Origin: Bdellovibrionales bacterium Ga0074139
Lineage (GTDB): Bacteria > Bdellovibrionota > Bdellovibrionia > Bdellovibrionales > Bdellovibrionaceae
Assembly: GCA_001464795.1 (NCBI GenBank)
Contig: LNEB01000013.1
Span: 1 to 64,000, forward strand
Direction of reading: 5' to 3'
DNA: 64,000 nt
A model generated the notes under the pieces. It was given only the letters and a program-made list of their open reading frames with translations, was not told the DNA's origin and made no database searches. Every line of letters begins with the position of its first letter. Position 1 is the stretch's first letter. Positions 20,730-26,189 of this stretch are shown here, in pieces. A program made the translations under genes and the position numbers.

Positions 20730-21224
20730 ATGCACTTCAAAATTAAAAAAACATCAAGAAAAGGCCAAGGGGTGTTTACAACCAAGCCCTTTAAAAAAGG
20801 AGATTTAGTTCATGTTTTTGCAGGTGACCGACTGACATCAAAACAAATCGACAAAAGAATTGAAGCTGGCTTTGAGACCTGTGATGATCCTTTCCAAATC
20901 AGCCGCACAATGTACATAGATCTTGATGAGCTCTCCAGATCCATCAACCACAGTTGTGACCCCAACTGCGGCATCAAACAAGAACTCAAGTTATTTGCCA
21001 TACGAGATATCGCCATCGGAGAAGAAATCTGTTTTGACTACTCCACCACTGTTCCTCAGTACAAATCTTGGTGGAAAATGAAATGCTTTTGCAAAAGTTT
21101 AAATTGCCGAAAAGTGATTAGTTCTTTTAATAAAATTCCCAAAAAGCACTTAGATTATTATTTAAAGCTGCAAATTCTGCCTCTTTGGGTTAGAAAATTT
21201 AGAATCTATGACCGATACTCCTAA
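20730..21224 (+). CDS. SET-domain lysine methyltransferase-like protein
   Basis: This 164-residue protein is a compact SET domain. GQGVFTTKPFKKGD opens the fold, N73-H74 in SINHSCDPNC and Y104 in EICFDYSTT are the SAM-binding and catalytic positions, and a post-SET-like CFCKSLNCR (C119, C121, C126 with a SET cysteine) can bind zinc. SET proteins transfer methyl groups to lysines, often of histones. Bacterial examples are sporadic and their targets mostly unknown. Its last 17 bases overlap the ECF sigma gene, so a role tied to that sigma factor or its regulon is plausible. Confidence 0.9.
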   Translation: MHFKIKKTSRKGQGVFTTKPFKKGDLVHVFAGDRLTSKQIDKRIEAGFETCDDPFQISRTMYIDLDELSRSINHSCDPNCGIKQELKLFAIRDIAIGEEICFDYSTTVPQYKSWWKMKCFCKSLNCRKVISSFNKIPKKHLDYYLKLQILPLWVRKFRIYDRYS

Positions 21225-21807
21225 TAAAAGTTACCTTTCAAATGAACTTATGATGAAGTTGAAAAACAGGGACACTGAAACTCTGTCTCAATTGTTTAAA
21301 GAAATTAATCCCTATTTACAGCGTATTTTGATTTCACGTAAAATTTTTAATGAACATGCCTTTGATCTTTTACAAGATACTTGGTCCACTTTTCTTAATC
21401 ACTTAGATCAATTCGAGGGTAGATCCCAATTAAAAACATTTTTAGCCGGGATTTTAATTAATAAGATTCGTGAATTTCAAAGACATCAAAAAAGAGTCCA
21501 GCCAGAGGAAGATTTTGAAAAAATACTAAGTCAGAACTTCACTCCGGATGGATGGTGGAAACAGGATCCAAAAAGTCCTGAATTTCTGATGCAGTCCCAG
21601 GAAACTCTAAAGTTTATTCAAGAATGTTTGGATGATCTGACAGATAATCAAAGGGACGCATTTATTTTAAAAGAGATCGACCAAAATGAGACGGATATTA
21701 TATGTAATATTTTAAGTGTTTCCAACACTCACTTAGGAGTTCTGTTATTTCGAGCCAAACAAAAACTTCGTATGTGTATTGAGGGAAAGATTTTAGTTAA
21801 TGAATAA
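21208..21807 (+). CDS. ECF-type RNA polymerase sigma factor
   Basis: The 199-residue protein has the sigma70 region 2 pattern (YLQRILISRKIFNEHAFDLLQDTWSTF, in 35-62) and region 4 (CLDDLTDNQRDAFILKEIDQNETDIICNIL, then GVLLFRAKQKLR, in 138-190). A long linker with TPDGWWKQDPKSPEFLM lies between them. This matches ECF sigma factors. It overlaps the SET gene upstream and its stop overlaps the start of a zinc anti-sigma gene downstream, the usual sigma/anti-sigma layout. Confidence 0.93.
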   Translation: MTDTPNKSYLSNELMMKLKNRDTETLSQLFKEINPYLQRILISRKIFNEHAFDLLQDTWSTFLNHLDQFEGRSQLKTFLAGILINKIREFQRHQKRVQPEEDFEKILSQNFTPDGWWKQDPKSPEFLMQSQETLKFIQECLDDLTDNQRDAFILKEIDQNETDIICNILSVSNTHLGVLLFRAKQKLRMCIEGKILVNE

Positions 21808-22105
21808 ACTGTCTCAAAATCTTAGAAAAATTTGACACTGGGTTTACTACCGCCTGAGTGGTCGAAAAGGTGTTGATTTTGCACTTCGATGCCAGCAAGT
21901 AGCAAGTCACATTGACCATGGACCTAAAACATCCAATTTTCAATTCTTTCTTCACTTAAGTCTATGTCAGGCTTGCACAAACTATTTTAATTTTTCTAAA
22001 GTATTGTCTGAACATGCAAAGAAACTCAGTTCATCTGAAGAGCCAATTGAAAAAATAAACGAAAAATTAATTAAAAAATTAGCAAACCCCAAGAGCGAAA
22101 TTTAA
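21800..22105 (+). pseudogene. Zinc-binding anti-sigma factor gene interrupted by an in-frame TGA
   Basis: The frame starting at ATG 21800, overlapping the sigma gene by 8 bases, reads MNKLSQNLRKI, then TGA at 21833-21835, then continues open for 89 codons (HWVYYRLSGRKGVDFAL...) to TAA at 22103-22105. The second part contains HIDHG and HLSLCQAC, which is the H-x3-C-x2-C zinc anti-sigma (ZAS) motif. No ATG, GTG or TTG lies between the TGA and that motif. Loss of function, a sequencing error (TGG to TGA) or UGA readthrough are possible. The 3' end runs 27 bases into the convergent decarboxylase gene. Confidence 0.7.
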
Positions 22106-23707
22106 AATATTTTTTACATGTTCAAAATTCAGCTGTGGGTGCACAAAAATCATTCTTAAAAAAGCTCCATCCTTGGAATTTTCCGAATAATTCACCATGG
22201 CTTGATGATGCTTGATCATTTGTTTGCGAACATGAATTGACCAAGCACGAGGATCGGCCTCACTGCCTTGAGGTGGCAAAACTTGAACACATAAATTTAA
22301 AAAAGAAGGATGACTAATTAATCTGAGTCGTTGTTGATTTTTTATAAAATCAACAGTGGTCTGCACAAGTTCTAATTTTTGATCAATAGCGTTTTGCAAG
22401 CCCTGATCACCTAGGTTTTTCCAAAGGGTCCAAAAACTTAAAAATTCTGCACCTCGTCCGCATTGCCAAGATAGTCTTCCACGATCAAGTTCCTCTGACT
22501 CGTGAAATAAGTATTCTCCACCTTTAACATCATTGGCTTCAAACAACAGAGCTCCATTTTTAACCACGAAAAATGTAGAAGTTAGGTCCGCACCAAAAAA
22601 CTTATGGGCATCAAATGTCAAAGAGTCTGCCAATTCAGATCCTTTTATTAGATCTGTGTTTTTTGAAAAATAAGCGGGAGCTCCCCATGCTGCATCCACA
22701 TGCAACCAAAGATTGAACTTTCGAGCCACAACAGCCAATTCATCGATGGGATCAAATGCACCTAATACTGTTGTGCCCGCAGTGGCAGCAACTAATAATG
22801 GCTCATGACCGGATTTAAGATCTTGTTGAATTTGAGCTTGTAAATCATCGGAAATCATTTTTCCAAATTCATCTGTTTGAATTGAAACAACAGAATTTGT
22901 TCCTAAACCGATAGCATTAGCAGACTTTAAAAAAGAATAATGGGCCTGATCAGAAACATAGATTCGGTAACTGTGATTTTGATTTCCCTGGGTTTTTGCA
23001 AGAGGGTTATTAGAGTGCCTAGCACAATGCAAAGCCATCATGTTAGCTGCACTTCCCCCTGAGATTCCAATACCATCAGAATTCTTTGAATCCCATCCCA
23101 TTTTCATCGCTAATTTTTTTGTAATTTCTTTTTCAATCAGTGAATAAACGGGACTGGCTTCCCAAGTCGCTAACGTTGTGCGGGTGCGATGAATAACTGA
23201 TTCAGCAGCTAAAGTTTGAGAATGAACTCCAGAAAACAACTGGTTCATAAAATAAGGTGAGCTTGTGGTGACCGAAGATTTTTCAATCTCACTCAGTAAA
23301 TGGGAAACATGATTCCAATTCAGTGAATCACCTAAATCTAGATGGAATTCTAATTTATCATTTTGATTATGAAAAGTTGCAGGCTTTAGATCTTTTGAAA
23401 TTTTTGGAGAATAAACATGCAGTGTTGTTCCTGTTTCACTTATACATTTAATTTCATGTTCAGCGGCTATTGGTGTGGTGAAAAACTGTCCTACTTTGAG
23501 TATCTGAGTTTCAGTTTTAAATCCTAGAACCGTTTTATTTTCAAATATTCCGTTTTCAATTAAAACAGAGCATTGACTGACTCCATGAGAATGCAACATT
23601 GAAATTGCCTCTTTTTGCCAAACACATCTAACGACCTCAAAGGCCTCAGTTTCAAACAAAACAGTTCTTGTATACTTGGCATCTCGTAGTGTTTCTGTCT
23701 CAAACAT
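22079..23707 (-). CDS. Fusion of cysteine-dioxygenase-like cupin and PLP decarboxylase (cysteine sulfinate type)
   Basis: Residues 1-103 form a cupin with the cysteine dioxygenase active site: iron ligands H39, H41 and H84, plus C46, H97 and Y99 with exactly the spacing of H86/H88/C93 and H155/Y157 of mammalian CDO. Residues about 130-542 are a group II PLP decarboxylase (GGSAANMMAL, HVDAAWGAP, PLP lysine about K369 in DAHKFF). Together they would turn cysteine into cysteine sulfinate and then hypotaurine in one polypeptide. The decarboxylase substrate is inferred from the fusion; glutamate/aspartate or aromatic amino acids remain possible. Last gene of the YHS-DoxX operon. Confidence 0.9.
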   Translation of the reverse strand: MFETETLRDAKYTRTVLFETEAFEVVRCVWQKEAISMLHSHGVSQCSVLIENGIFENKTVLGFKTETQILKVGQFFTTPIAAEHEIKCISETGTTLHVYSPKISKDLKPATFHNQNDKLEFHLDLGDSLNWNHVSHLLSEIEKSSVTTSSPYFMNQLFSGVHSQTLAAESVIHRTRTTLATWEASPVYSLIEKEITKKLAMKMGWDSKNSDGIGISGGSAANMMALHCARHSNNPLAKTQGNQNHSYRIYVSDQAHYSFLKSANAIGLGTNSVVSIQTDEFGKMISDDLQAQIQQDLKSGHEPLLVAATAGTTVLGAFDPIDELAVVARKFNLWLHVDAAWGAPAYFSKNTDLIKGSELADSLTFDAHKFFGADLTSTFFVVKNGALLFEANDVKGGEYLFHESEELDRGRLSWQCGRGAEFLSFWTLWKNLGDQGLQNAIDQKLELVQTTVDFIKNQQRLRLISHPSFLNLCVQVLPPQGSEADPRAWSIHVRKQMIKHHQAMVNYSENSKDGAFLRMIFVHPQLNFEHVKNILNFALGVC

Positions 23708-23713
23708 AAATAA

Positions 23714-24103
23714 TTAAACCTTAACGAATTTTCTAAGCAATTGTTGAATAGAATATCGATTGTAGTAGAGTACAAACAAAGAACTACAAAAAACTAAAAT
23801 TGCCAATCCAAAAAGTGATCCCCCATCATCTTGAACAACAATTCCTAAAACAAAGAGATGACTTAAAATGGCTCCTGCCATGATACCCAGTGCCAGCAGG
23901 GCTCCAAAAATTTGAGTGGCAGGCACAACTAATAAAATGCCTGCAAACAACTCGAAAACTCCGCTCGCGATTCGACCGAAAGGCTCAACACCCATTTGTG
24001 TAAAAATATAGACAGATTCGGGAGCCGCCGTGAACTTAAAGAAAAGTGTTTGCAGCAGGATTGTGGCTGCAAGAATTCTAGCTATCCAATTGATCTTATT
24101 CAT
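23714..24103 (-). CDS. DoxX-family membrane protein
   Basis: The 129-residue protein has four membrane helices in the DoxX arrangement: IARILAATILLQTLFFKFT, a loop with IFTQMGVEPFGRIASGVFEL, then ILLVVPATQIFGALLALGIM, SHLFVLGIV and LFGLAILVFCSSLFVLYY. DoxX proteins are small integral membrane proteins, some linked to thiosulfate:quinone oxidation or redox stress. It lies between the YHS-domain gene (5-base gap) and the fused decarboxylase gene (6-base gap), so sulfur or redox metabolism fits the context. Confidence 0.9.
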   Translation of the reverse strand: MNKINWIARILAATILLQTLFFKFTAAPESVYIFTQMGVEPFGRIASGVFELFAGILLVVPATQIFGALLALGIMAGAILSHLFVLGIVVQDDGGSLFGLAILVFCSSLFVLYYNRYSIQQLLRKFVKV

Positions 24104-24108
24104 ATTTA

Positions 24109-24552
24109 TTACTCTTTTGACTTTGCGACAACGGGCCAGTTTTGATTGGCTTTTAGGATTTGCTCTGGCTCGTTTTTAAGCCAATCTTTTTTGGCATCCC
24201 CTCGCCATCCCTTATAAAACAAATAAAGCTTACCATTCGTTATTCTGTAGTGGGTCGGATCTATATCAAACTTATACCCACCAGCCACCGCAGTAGCACA
24301 CCAGCCTTCATACTGAGGCACGTAAGCTTCAGGTTGTGCTAAAAATAGAGTTTTGTTTTCTTCAGCACTAAATAAGTAGGTCAGCCCTTTATGCTCTGCC
24401 TTTATTTTACTTTCGCCCTTTATAGGCTGGTTTTTAAAGTAGCTCACAGGATCATATCCTTTCAGCATAACACCTTTTTCCAGATTCGCGGTGGATTGGG
24501 AAAAGGCCACCAATGGTAAGCAAAAGCTAAATAACAAGAATAATTGTTTCAT
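24109..24552 (-). CDS. Secreted YHS-domain protein
   Basis: This 147-residue protein has a signal peptide (LFLLFSFCLPLVAFSQS) and a YHS-type domain: LKGYDPVSYFKNQPIKGE, GLTYLFSAEENKTLFLAQPEAYVPQYEGWCA. YHS domains are thought to bind metals, though this variant has few candidate ligands. GYDPVSYF-type secreted YHS proteins commonly occur beside DoxX genes, as here. AAGGGG precedes the ATG by ten bases. Confidence 0.9.
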   Translation of the reverse strand: MKQLFLLFSFCLPLVAFSQSTANLEKGVMLKGYDPVSYFKNQPIKGESKIKAEHKGLTYLFSAEENKTLFLAQPEAYVPQYEGWCATAVAGGYKFDIDPTHYRITNGKLYLFYKGWRGDAKKDWLKNEPEQILKANQNWPVVAKSKE

Positions 24553-24611: not shown

Positions 24612-26189
24612 ATGTGGAATGAATTATTTTGGTCCTTATTTTTTGGAACATTCGTATTAGAGGACGTGGCCTTAGCCTCTATGATAACTCTCATTGCCCA
24701 GGAAAAAATCAGCTCTGAACTTGGTTTTTTAGCCTGTTTTTTGGGCATAAGCGTTGGGGATCTAGCGATTTATTATTTCGGCTGGTGGTTATCAAGCATA
24801 AAAAAAATTGAACACTATCCCCGATTAATGAAATTAAAACATAAAGTCCAATCTGTTCATCCTCGCTCCATGCTTGCGGCCGTATTTATCTGTCGCTTTG
24901 TACCAGGAACACGGGTCATCACCTATCTAGCTGCAGGATTTCAAAATTTTTCTCAAATATCTTTTTGGTTGATAACTGTGATTAGCGTGGGGGCATGGGT
25001 GGGAGTTGCTATGCTAGGAGCTCATTTTTTTGCTGTCTTTTTTATTAACAATCTATTGATTTCCATATTATTGGCTCTTTTGTTTCTGTTTGTCCTTAGA
25101 AAAATTTTTATTTTAGGCACGCAACCGATCAAGGCTCAGCAGTTTTTAAACAGCTATAGAAAGTATTTATCCTTCGAGTTTTGGCCTCCTTGGCTATTTT
25201 ATCCTCCTCTTATTTTTTATATTATTTATCTCATGATCAAAAATCGTAGTATCACAGCTTTACTTGATGCCAATCCCCAAATCCTTTACGGCGGACTTTT
25301 AGGTGAATCCAAATGGGAATTCTATCAGCATATGTTAAATCACCCTTTTTCCCTGCCCACCTATAAAATTCATCAAACAAATAAAGAAGAATCAGTTGAG
25401 CAGTTATTAAAATCTAAACTTTTAAGCTATCCTTTTATTTTGAAACCTGACGTAGGCCAAAGAGGCTTTGCTGTTCGAATCATTCGTGATTCCTATCAGC
25501 TAAGTGAATACTTGAATCTTGCAAATTTTGATCTGATCGCACAAAAGTTTTGTTCTTGGCAGAATGAGGCTGGACTATTTTATATCCGCAAACCCAATCA
25601 AAATGTTGGCTTTATCTTTTCAGTAACAGATAAAACTTTTCCATTTATCACTGGTGATGGCAAAAGAACTATCGCCCAACATATTTTTGATGACCCCAGG
25701 GCTCGAATCATTTCTGAAACTTATCTTGAACGTGCCGGTGACCGGGCGAATGAAATATTAAAACAAAATGAAATCTACTACCTCTCTGAATGTGGGAATC
25801 ATTGCCAGGGTGCTATATTTAAAAATGGAAAAGATTTAATTACCCCACAATTAACTTCAGCAATTGATGAACTGGCCAAGAAAATTCCTGACTTTTATTT
25901 TGGTCGATTTGACATTCGTTACGAATCGAAAGAAAAATTAATACAAGGCCTTGGCATTCAGGTCGTGGAAGTGAACGGGGCAGGTTCAGAGGCCACTCAC
26001 ATTTGGGATCCTCAAACGACCTATCTTGAGGCCTATCAAACGTTGATCACCCAGTGGAATTACTTGTTTGAAATTGGTCTGCTTGTTAGAAAACTTAACA
26101 AACAGAAGCAAAAAAATTCTTTATTCGGTTTGGCAAAAGCCTATTTTAACATGCTAACTCAGAAAAAAGATCTGCAAAGCTCGTCCTAG
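24612..26189 (+). CDS. Fusion of DedA membrane domain and ATP-grasp domain
   Basis: Residues 1-170 are a DedA/SNARE-associated membrane domain (GDLAIYYFGWWLS, then FICRFVPGTRVITYLAAG), a lipid-scramblase-like module. After two further hydrophobic segments (to about 215) the C-terminal half is an ATP-grasp enzyme. It has FILKPDVGQRGFAVRII as the ATP-binding strand, HHxxG-like CGNHCQGA, and FGRFDIRYES with VVEVNGAGSEATHIWDP as the metal-binding end. ATP-grasp enzymes join a carboxylate to an amine or thiol, so the protein may modify a substrate at the inner membrane. No ribosome-binding site is seen before the ATG, which starts only about 11 bases after a TATTAC -10-like box. Confidence 0.88.
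   Translation: MWNELFWSLFFGTFVLEDVALASMITLIAQEKISSELGFLACFLGISVGDLAIYYFGWWLSSIKKIEHYPRLMKLKHKVQSVHPRSMLAAVFICRFVPGTRVITYLAAGFQNFSQISFWLITVISVGAWVGVAMLGAHFFAVFFINNLLISILLALLFLFVLRKIFILGTQPIKAQQFLNSYRKYLSFEFWPPWLFYPPLIFYIIYLMIKNRSITALLDANPQILYGGLLGESKWEFYQHMLNHPFSLPTYKIHQTNKEESVEQLLKSKLLSYPFILKPDVGQRGFAVRIIRDSYQLSEYLNLANFDLIAQKFCSWQNEAGLFYIRKPNQNVGFIFSVTDKTFPFITGDGKRTIAQHIFDDPRARIISETYLERAGDRANEILKQNEIYYLSECGNHCQGAIFKNGKDLITPQLTSAIDELAKKIPDFYFGRFDIRYESKEKLIQGLGIQVVEVNGAGSEATHIWDPQTTYLEAYQTLITQWNYLFEIGLLVRKLNKQKQKNSLFGLAKAYFNMLTQKKDLQSSS

Follow-up and report, generated by a model that had tools for sequence, protein, structure and literature searches.

The window, by which we mean the whole stretch of 64,000 nucleotides analysed here (contig LNEB01000013.1 of Bdellovibrionales bacterium Ga0074139), encodes a natural fusion of a cysteine dioxygenase (CDO)-type cupin with a PLP-dependent amino-acid decarboxylase. 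Judging from the protein sequence and from genome comparison, we consider it rather likely that this protein is a one-chain enzyme that takes cysteine to hypotaurine, that its decarboxylase half derives from an aspartate/cysteine-sulfinate decarboxylase, and that its gene belongs to a redox-stress operon. If so, both steps between cysteine and hypotaurine would be naturally coupled on a single chain, in a group of bacteria whose taurine synthesis is poorly known, and a function would be on offer for a DoxX-like family. No published description of a CDO-type cupin/decarboxylase fusion was found in the literature searched; algae or other bacteria may nevertheless have CDO-CSAD fusions that are already described. 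The locus comprises the following features.

22079..23707 (-), fusion gene: CDO-type cupin, linker and PLP decarboxylase, 542 aa (ORF, Pfam, PDB and profile)
23399..23707 (-), cupin domain, residues 1-103 (conservation among 10 orthologues, profile)
22079..23320 (-), PLP-dependent acidic amino-acid decarboxylase domain, residues ~130-542 (PF00282, PDB matches, substrate triad)
23714..24103 (-), DoxX-like membrane protein, separated by 6 bases from the fusion gene downstream of it (PF13564, DoxX_2, 2.6e-6)
24109..24552 (-), homologue of secreted YHS-domain (seleno)proteins, first gene of the operon (NF041384, 124.9 bits against a cut-off of 70)
24612..26189 (+), VTT-domain membrane protein, divergent (PF09335, 1.7e-8)
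21208..21807 (+), sigma factor of the ECF type, its gene convergent with that of the fusion (Sigma70_r2 and r4_2)
21800..22105 (+), anti-sigma-like small frame with HxxxCxxC, overlapping the 3' end of the fusion gene (translation)
20730-21224 (+), bacterial SET-domain protein, immediately preceding the sigma factor gene (PF00856, 1.3e-16)

The fusion protein and its cupin domain

The fusion gene starts with ATG and is read through 542 amino acids without an internal stop, the cupin (residues 1 to ~103) being followed by a linker and by the decarboxylase (~130-542). In an AlphaFold2 model built from 38 sequences (mean pLDDT 91.7, pTM 0.89), strands at residues 12-100 are consistent with a beta barrel, after which comes the decarboxylase fold; an earlier model from 6 sequences (pLDDT 59) was set aside. 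When the whole-chain model was compared with known structures using Foldseek, only decarboxylases were among the best 50 matches. The fusion is kept across several families, which bears out the original prediction that it is natural.

The single-sequence match of the cupin to the Pfam CDO_I family (PF05995) is weak (12.1 bits against a cut-off of 23, E = 0.14), and the CDO assignment therefore needed independent support; the orthologous cupins scored 13-18 bits or had no listed match, every member being below the threshold. When a profile of 10 intact-cupin sequences, drawn from families f1, f6, f12 and f21, was compared with solved structures, B. subtilis CDO came first (2e-8), followed by mammalian CDO (~1e-4) and the remaining cupins (~2e-3). 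Alignment with the CDO family, which had been proposed as a check of the original prediction, thus identifies CDOs as the best solved relatives of the profile, with R14 corresponding to Arg60, H39/H41 to His86/88, C46 to Cys93 and H97/Y99 to His155/Tyr157.

The notable residues of the cupin are R14, H39, H41, C46, H84, T95, H97, Y99, S100 and P101. All CDO positions named at the outset (H39, H41, C46, H84, H97 and Y99) are present in the sequence, and their spacings match those of CDO (HxHxxSxC, then H, then (S/T)LHxY(S/T)P); R14, the equivalent of Arg60 of mammalian CDO, is a further CDO position that the original prediction did not list. Among the intact-cupin orthologues, 10/10 keep R14, H39, H41, H84, H97, Y99 and P101, and 9/10 keep C46, which is replaced by Ala in one G279 copy with a nearly intact cupin. 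The predicted three-His iron site of CDO (HxH...H; H39, H41 and H84) is accordingly found in 10/10 orthologues, and so is the Arg that marks Arg-type enzymes, in place of the Gln that characterizes the Gln-type 3-mercaptopropionate dioxygenases (PMC8050391). At the positions of the Ser-His-Tyr triad of CDO, the cupin has T95-H97-Y99, with Thr replacing Ser153 and the His and Tyr kept, and the mammalian-type Cys93-Tyr157 pair is matched by C46 (9/10) and Y99 (10/10), a candidate cross-link. The window cupin resembles Arg-type CDO I (B. subtilis, 3eqe/4qm8; mammalian CDO1) in the three-His site, the Arg60 equivalent, the His and Tyr of the (S/T)-H-Y residues, the LHxYSP segment and, as in mammalian CDO, the Cys93/Tyr157 pair, whereas it differs in its length of ~100 residues, its fusion to a decarboxylase, its sub-cut-off CDO_I score and the Thr for Ser153. 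The Cys-Tyr pair is mammalian-like, and in bacterial CDOs the Tyr is reported to stay unmodified (PMC8050391), whereas the window cupin keeps the Cys.

A search of the window genome with PF05995 found no stand-alone CDO. Stand-alone CDO_I genes above the Pfam cut-off occur in two other genomes, G010 (C51:5257-5691) and G043 (C4:24968-25255), in neither of which was a close relative of the fusion found.

The decarboxylase domain and its relatives

Residues 140-473 match Pyridoxal_deC (PF00282; E = 1.5e-63, 215 bits against a cut-off of 27), and the PLP residues D338, H368 and K369 are all present and nearly invariant, in agreement with the earlier statement that the PLP domain is complete. The best PDB match is human CSAD (4.6e-74), followed by GADL1 and GAD. 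Compared with CSAD, GADL1 and GAD65-67 (2jis, 6enz, 2okj), the window protein has the same fold, family and PLP residues at ~32% identity, and differs in its N-terminal cupin and in its substrate triad, which is F158/T178/A180 (F/T/A) as against F/S/Y in CSAD, Y/S/Y in GADL1 and S/N/F in GAD; all complete fusions carry Thr at the second and Ala at the third triad position. The CSAD triad, which we take to be Phe, Ser and Tyr in F-x19-S-x-Y, a definition reportedly from Agnello 2013, is thus lacking in the window decarboxylase. CDO and CSAD operons, reportedly described in the same work (cited in PMC12585060) from Synechococcus PCC 7335 and marine flavobacteria, likewise pair CDO with an acidic amino-acid decarboxylase, as separate genes, and the Psychroflexus decarboxylases, which served as the outgroup, carry F/S/Y whereas the window protein carries F/T/A. 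As to CSAD identity, the proximity to the CSAD/GADL1/GAD family therefore stands, and the triad does not, the protein grouping with stand-alone enzymes that appear to replace PanD. By its sequence, the decarboxylase half has the look of an aspartate decarboxylase and not of the enzyme known from the taurine pathway; aspartate is a live candidate substrate, and specificity for cysteine sulfinate is putative only. Several members of the CSAD/GADL1/GAD family from insects and mammals accept Asp as well as cysteine sulfinate (PMC5947694, PMC10594873).

We searched 325 genomes of the phylum for relatives, and found a close decarboxylase relative in 56, panD in 197 and panC in 278. Among panC+ genomes, panD is absent from 43/48 with a PLP relative and from 44/229 without one (Fisher, p = 1.4e-20, with the window genome left out and genomes counted as independent); for stand-alone relatives, 36 of the 38 panC+ genomes are without panD. 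The swap is also seen within genera: in g31, G089 has panD and G047, G052 and G090 have the decarboxylase, and in g40, G105 and G106 have panD and G058 has the decarboxylase. Because the stand-alone members with the F/T/A triad, which is common to them and the fusion, are nearly confined to panD-less, panC+ genomes, they are probably aspartate decarboxylases serving pantothenate synthesis. By this distribution they resemble the PLP replacements of PanD, V. fischeri PanP and D. vulgaris DVU0867, of which the D. vulgaris PLP decarboxylase has been shown to act in place of PanD (PMC10102598); the window protein differs from these in its PanP model score (TIGR03799, 144.5 bits versus an NCBIfam cut-off of 606.1), in the presence of PanD in its genome and in the fused cupin. 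These counts rest on the genome homology search because a peptide-pattern search of the genome collection retrieved only Psychroflexus CSAD-type relatives. Three stand-alone members with a W/S/Y triad (G096, G113 and G123, one with panD and two without panC) do not follow the panD-replacing distribution and possibly act on a different substrate. Separately, 44 phylum genomes (for example, G021, G200-G202 and G254-G258) are panC+ and panD- and carry no such decarboxylase; neither beta-alanine source was found in them, and another decarboxylase or a uracil-route enzyme may serve them.

The window genome (G000) has both panD and panC, so that the fusion is not in place of panD. Likewise, panD accompanies the intact fusion in G005, G012 and G031, a stand-alone paralogue accompanies it in G205 and G206, and a decayed-cupin copy in G279. 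Another source of beta-alanine is thus available in 7 of the 9 intact-fusion genomes, and its supply there does not have to depend on the intact fusion. No beta-alanine candidate besides the intact fusion was found in G057 and G288, which suggests activity on Asp; in these two genomes the fusion may do both jobs.

The decarboxylase-domain tree unites all fusions and the two cupin-less g31 enzymes in one clade (support 100/100) nested inside the stand-alone enzymes, so that a single origin of the fusion is the simplest reading. Its cupin has decayed in G052, in G044 and in one G279 copy, and G047 and G090 have none; these genomes are all panD-less and panC+. Decay or loss of the cupin has thus happened at least three times, and only where panD is absent. 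When the cupin decays, the Arg and the cupin ligands disappear together. G279 has two fusion copies, L094 (C322) and L070 (C243), of which the one with the nearly intact cupin (Ala for Cys) lies in a YHS-DoxX operon and the one with the decayed cupin is without it. The decayed-cupin relatives, and this one genome with both versions, provide ready-made controls for substrate choice. If the proposed function is correct, these enzymes would illustrate the interconversion of PanD-replacing and taurine-pathway decarboxylases.

The operon and its neighbourhood

The operon reads YHS - DoxX-like - fusion, on the same strand, with gaps of 5 and 6 bases. Within the order, a DoxX orthologue is present in 5/117 genomes, exactly those with an intact-cupin fusion, and in 0/112 others, the decayed-cupin genomes among them (for independent genomes the chance would be 6e-9, but the genomes are not independent); it also adjoins the fusion in G001, G205, G206 and G288 and at the intact G279 copy. 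The connection with DoxX, originally noted as an operon gene that fits sulfur chemistry, has therefore turned out to be much stronger than claimed. The YHS protein has a single conserved Cys, in GWCA in the alignment; its homologues, unlike DoxX, are scattered over 26/117 genomes, and YHS alone was dropped as a marker of the fusion.

The divergent VTT-domain neighbour accompanies most intact-fusion loci, recurring in G057, G012, G031, G005, G001, G206, G288 and G279; the VTT-domain protein of the window has a long C-terminal part with a weak match to ATP-grasp-like models. An ECF-type sigma factor adjoins the operon in the window genome and in G005, G012, G031, G205, G206 and G288. The anti-sigma-like frame of the window contains an in-frame stop after 11 codons and has uninterrupted HxxxCxxC homologues in G012, G031, G205 and G206; it may be a pseudogene, or its start may lie downstream. 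MsrB and MsrA are adjacent to the fusion locus in G206, and MsrB and a DsbD/thioredoxin protein lie near it in G279. In Haemophilus, an HOCl-induced ECF sigma factor has msrAB and a DoxX cluster under its control; the Haemophilus/Neisseria regulon resembles the present neighbourhood in its DoxX-like gene, MsrA/B, ECF sigma factor and small anti-sigma factor, whereas a thiol dioxygenase or decarboxylase is not described there (PMC7907618). Given the ECF sigma/anti-sigma pair, the MsrA/MsrB and DsbD-like neighbours and the Haemophilus parallel, a redox-stress role is favoured, and the surrounding genes speak for oxidative or envelope stress and not for osmolyte supply. The suggestion that taurine serves as an osmolyte found no supporting genomic context and was dropped. 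In an oxidative-stress setting, hypotaurine would be an induced antioxidant, not an osmolyte.

Proposed reactions and alternatives

Cysteine sulfinate is an analogue of aspartate, and an aspartate-type enzyme could hence be recruited with little change. In the scheme that we favour, Fe(II) would be held by H39, H41 and H84 of the cupin, R14 would hold the carboxylate of cysteine, and O2 would attack the sulfur to give cysteine sulfinate, with C46 and Y99 possibly cross-linked. The cysteine sulfinate would then pass to the PLP site (K369), in a domain presumably descended from a dual-specificity aspartate/cysteine-sulfinate decarboxylase, and lose CO2; it is in this way that we infer hypotaurine production by the fusion protein. 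Fusion would make the intermediate locally, channelling not being implied. Redox stress probably switches on the operon via the neighbouring ECF sigma/anti-sigma pair, and the DoxX-like protein in the membrane probably deals with the product or with its electrons. A more elaborate scenario, which we consider unlikely as a whole, is that the DoxX-like protein, obligately co-inherited, converts hypotaurine to taurine with the quinone pool as oxidant, or handles the sulfinate in some other way, beside a stress-induced one-chain CDO-decarboxylase. The latter would have originated through capture of a thiol dioxygenase domain by a PanD-replacing aspartate decarboxylase and would revert to beta-alanine production on cupin decay; this DoxX family would then be a sulfinate-processing membrane enzyme.

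The fusion might instead be an aspartate 1-decarboxylase that makes beta-alanine, with a cupin that either regulates it in a thiol- or O2-dependent manner or provides a side activity. Such a role would accord with the F/T/A triad and ancestry common to the fusion and the stand-alone enzymes of panD-less, panC+ genomes, with the panD swaps in g31 and g40 and with the replacement of PanD by a PLP decarboxylase in Desulfovibrio (PMC10102598), and it is kept alive by G057 and G288, whose beta-alanine may come from the intact fusion alone. However, panD and panC coexist with the fusion in the window genome, both are also found in G005, G012 and G031, and a second family member in G205, G206 and G279; moreover, the enzymes that serve beta-alanine alone show a decayed cupin and no DoxX operon, so that the intact cupin seems to have another purpose, and we regard an aspartate-only enzyme as a minority prospect.

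The same two steps could also act on other compounds, another thiol (homocysteine, a cysteine derivative or 3-mercaptopropionate) being oxidised and another amino acid decarboxylated. The third triad residue is Ala, not Tyr or Phe, which could make the pocket larger, and the cupin is a divergent branch, but the Arg at the CDO-60 position is that of Arg-type, not Gln-type, enzymes (PMC8050391) and the nearest solved decarboxylases use acidic amino acids, which makes other substrates improbable. A reversed order, in which cysteine is decarboxylated to cysteamine, followed by ADO-like oxidation, would yield the same hypotaurine; no result of the analysis favours it, and with the carboxylate-binding Arg kept in 10/10 orthologues and CDOs, not ADO, as the best relatives, it appears very improbable.

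The window genome also encodes a second, distant PLP decarboxylase-like domain (G000:C7:198058-198924) inside a protein of ~1034 aa, and similar large proteins occur in several relatives.
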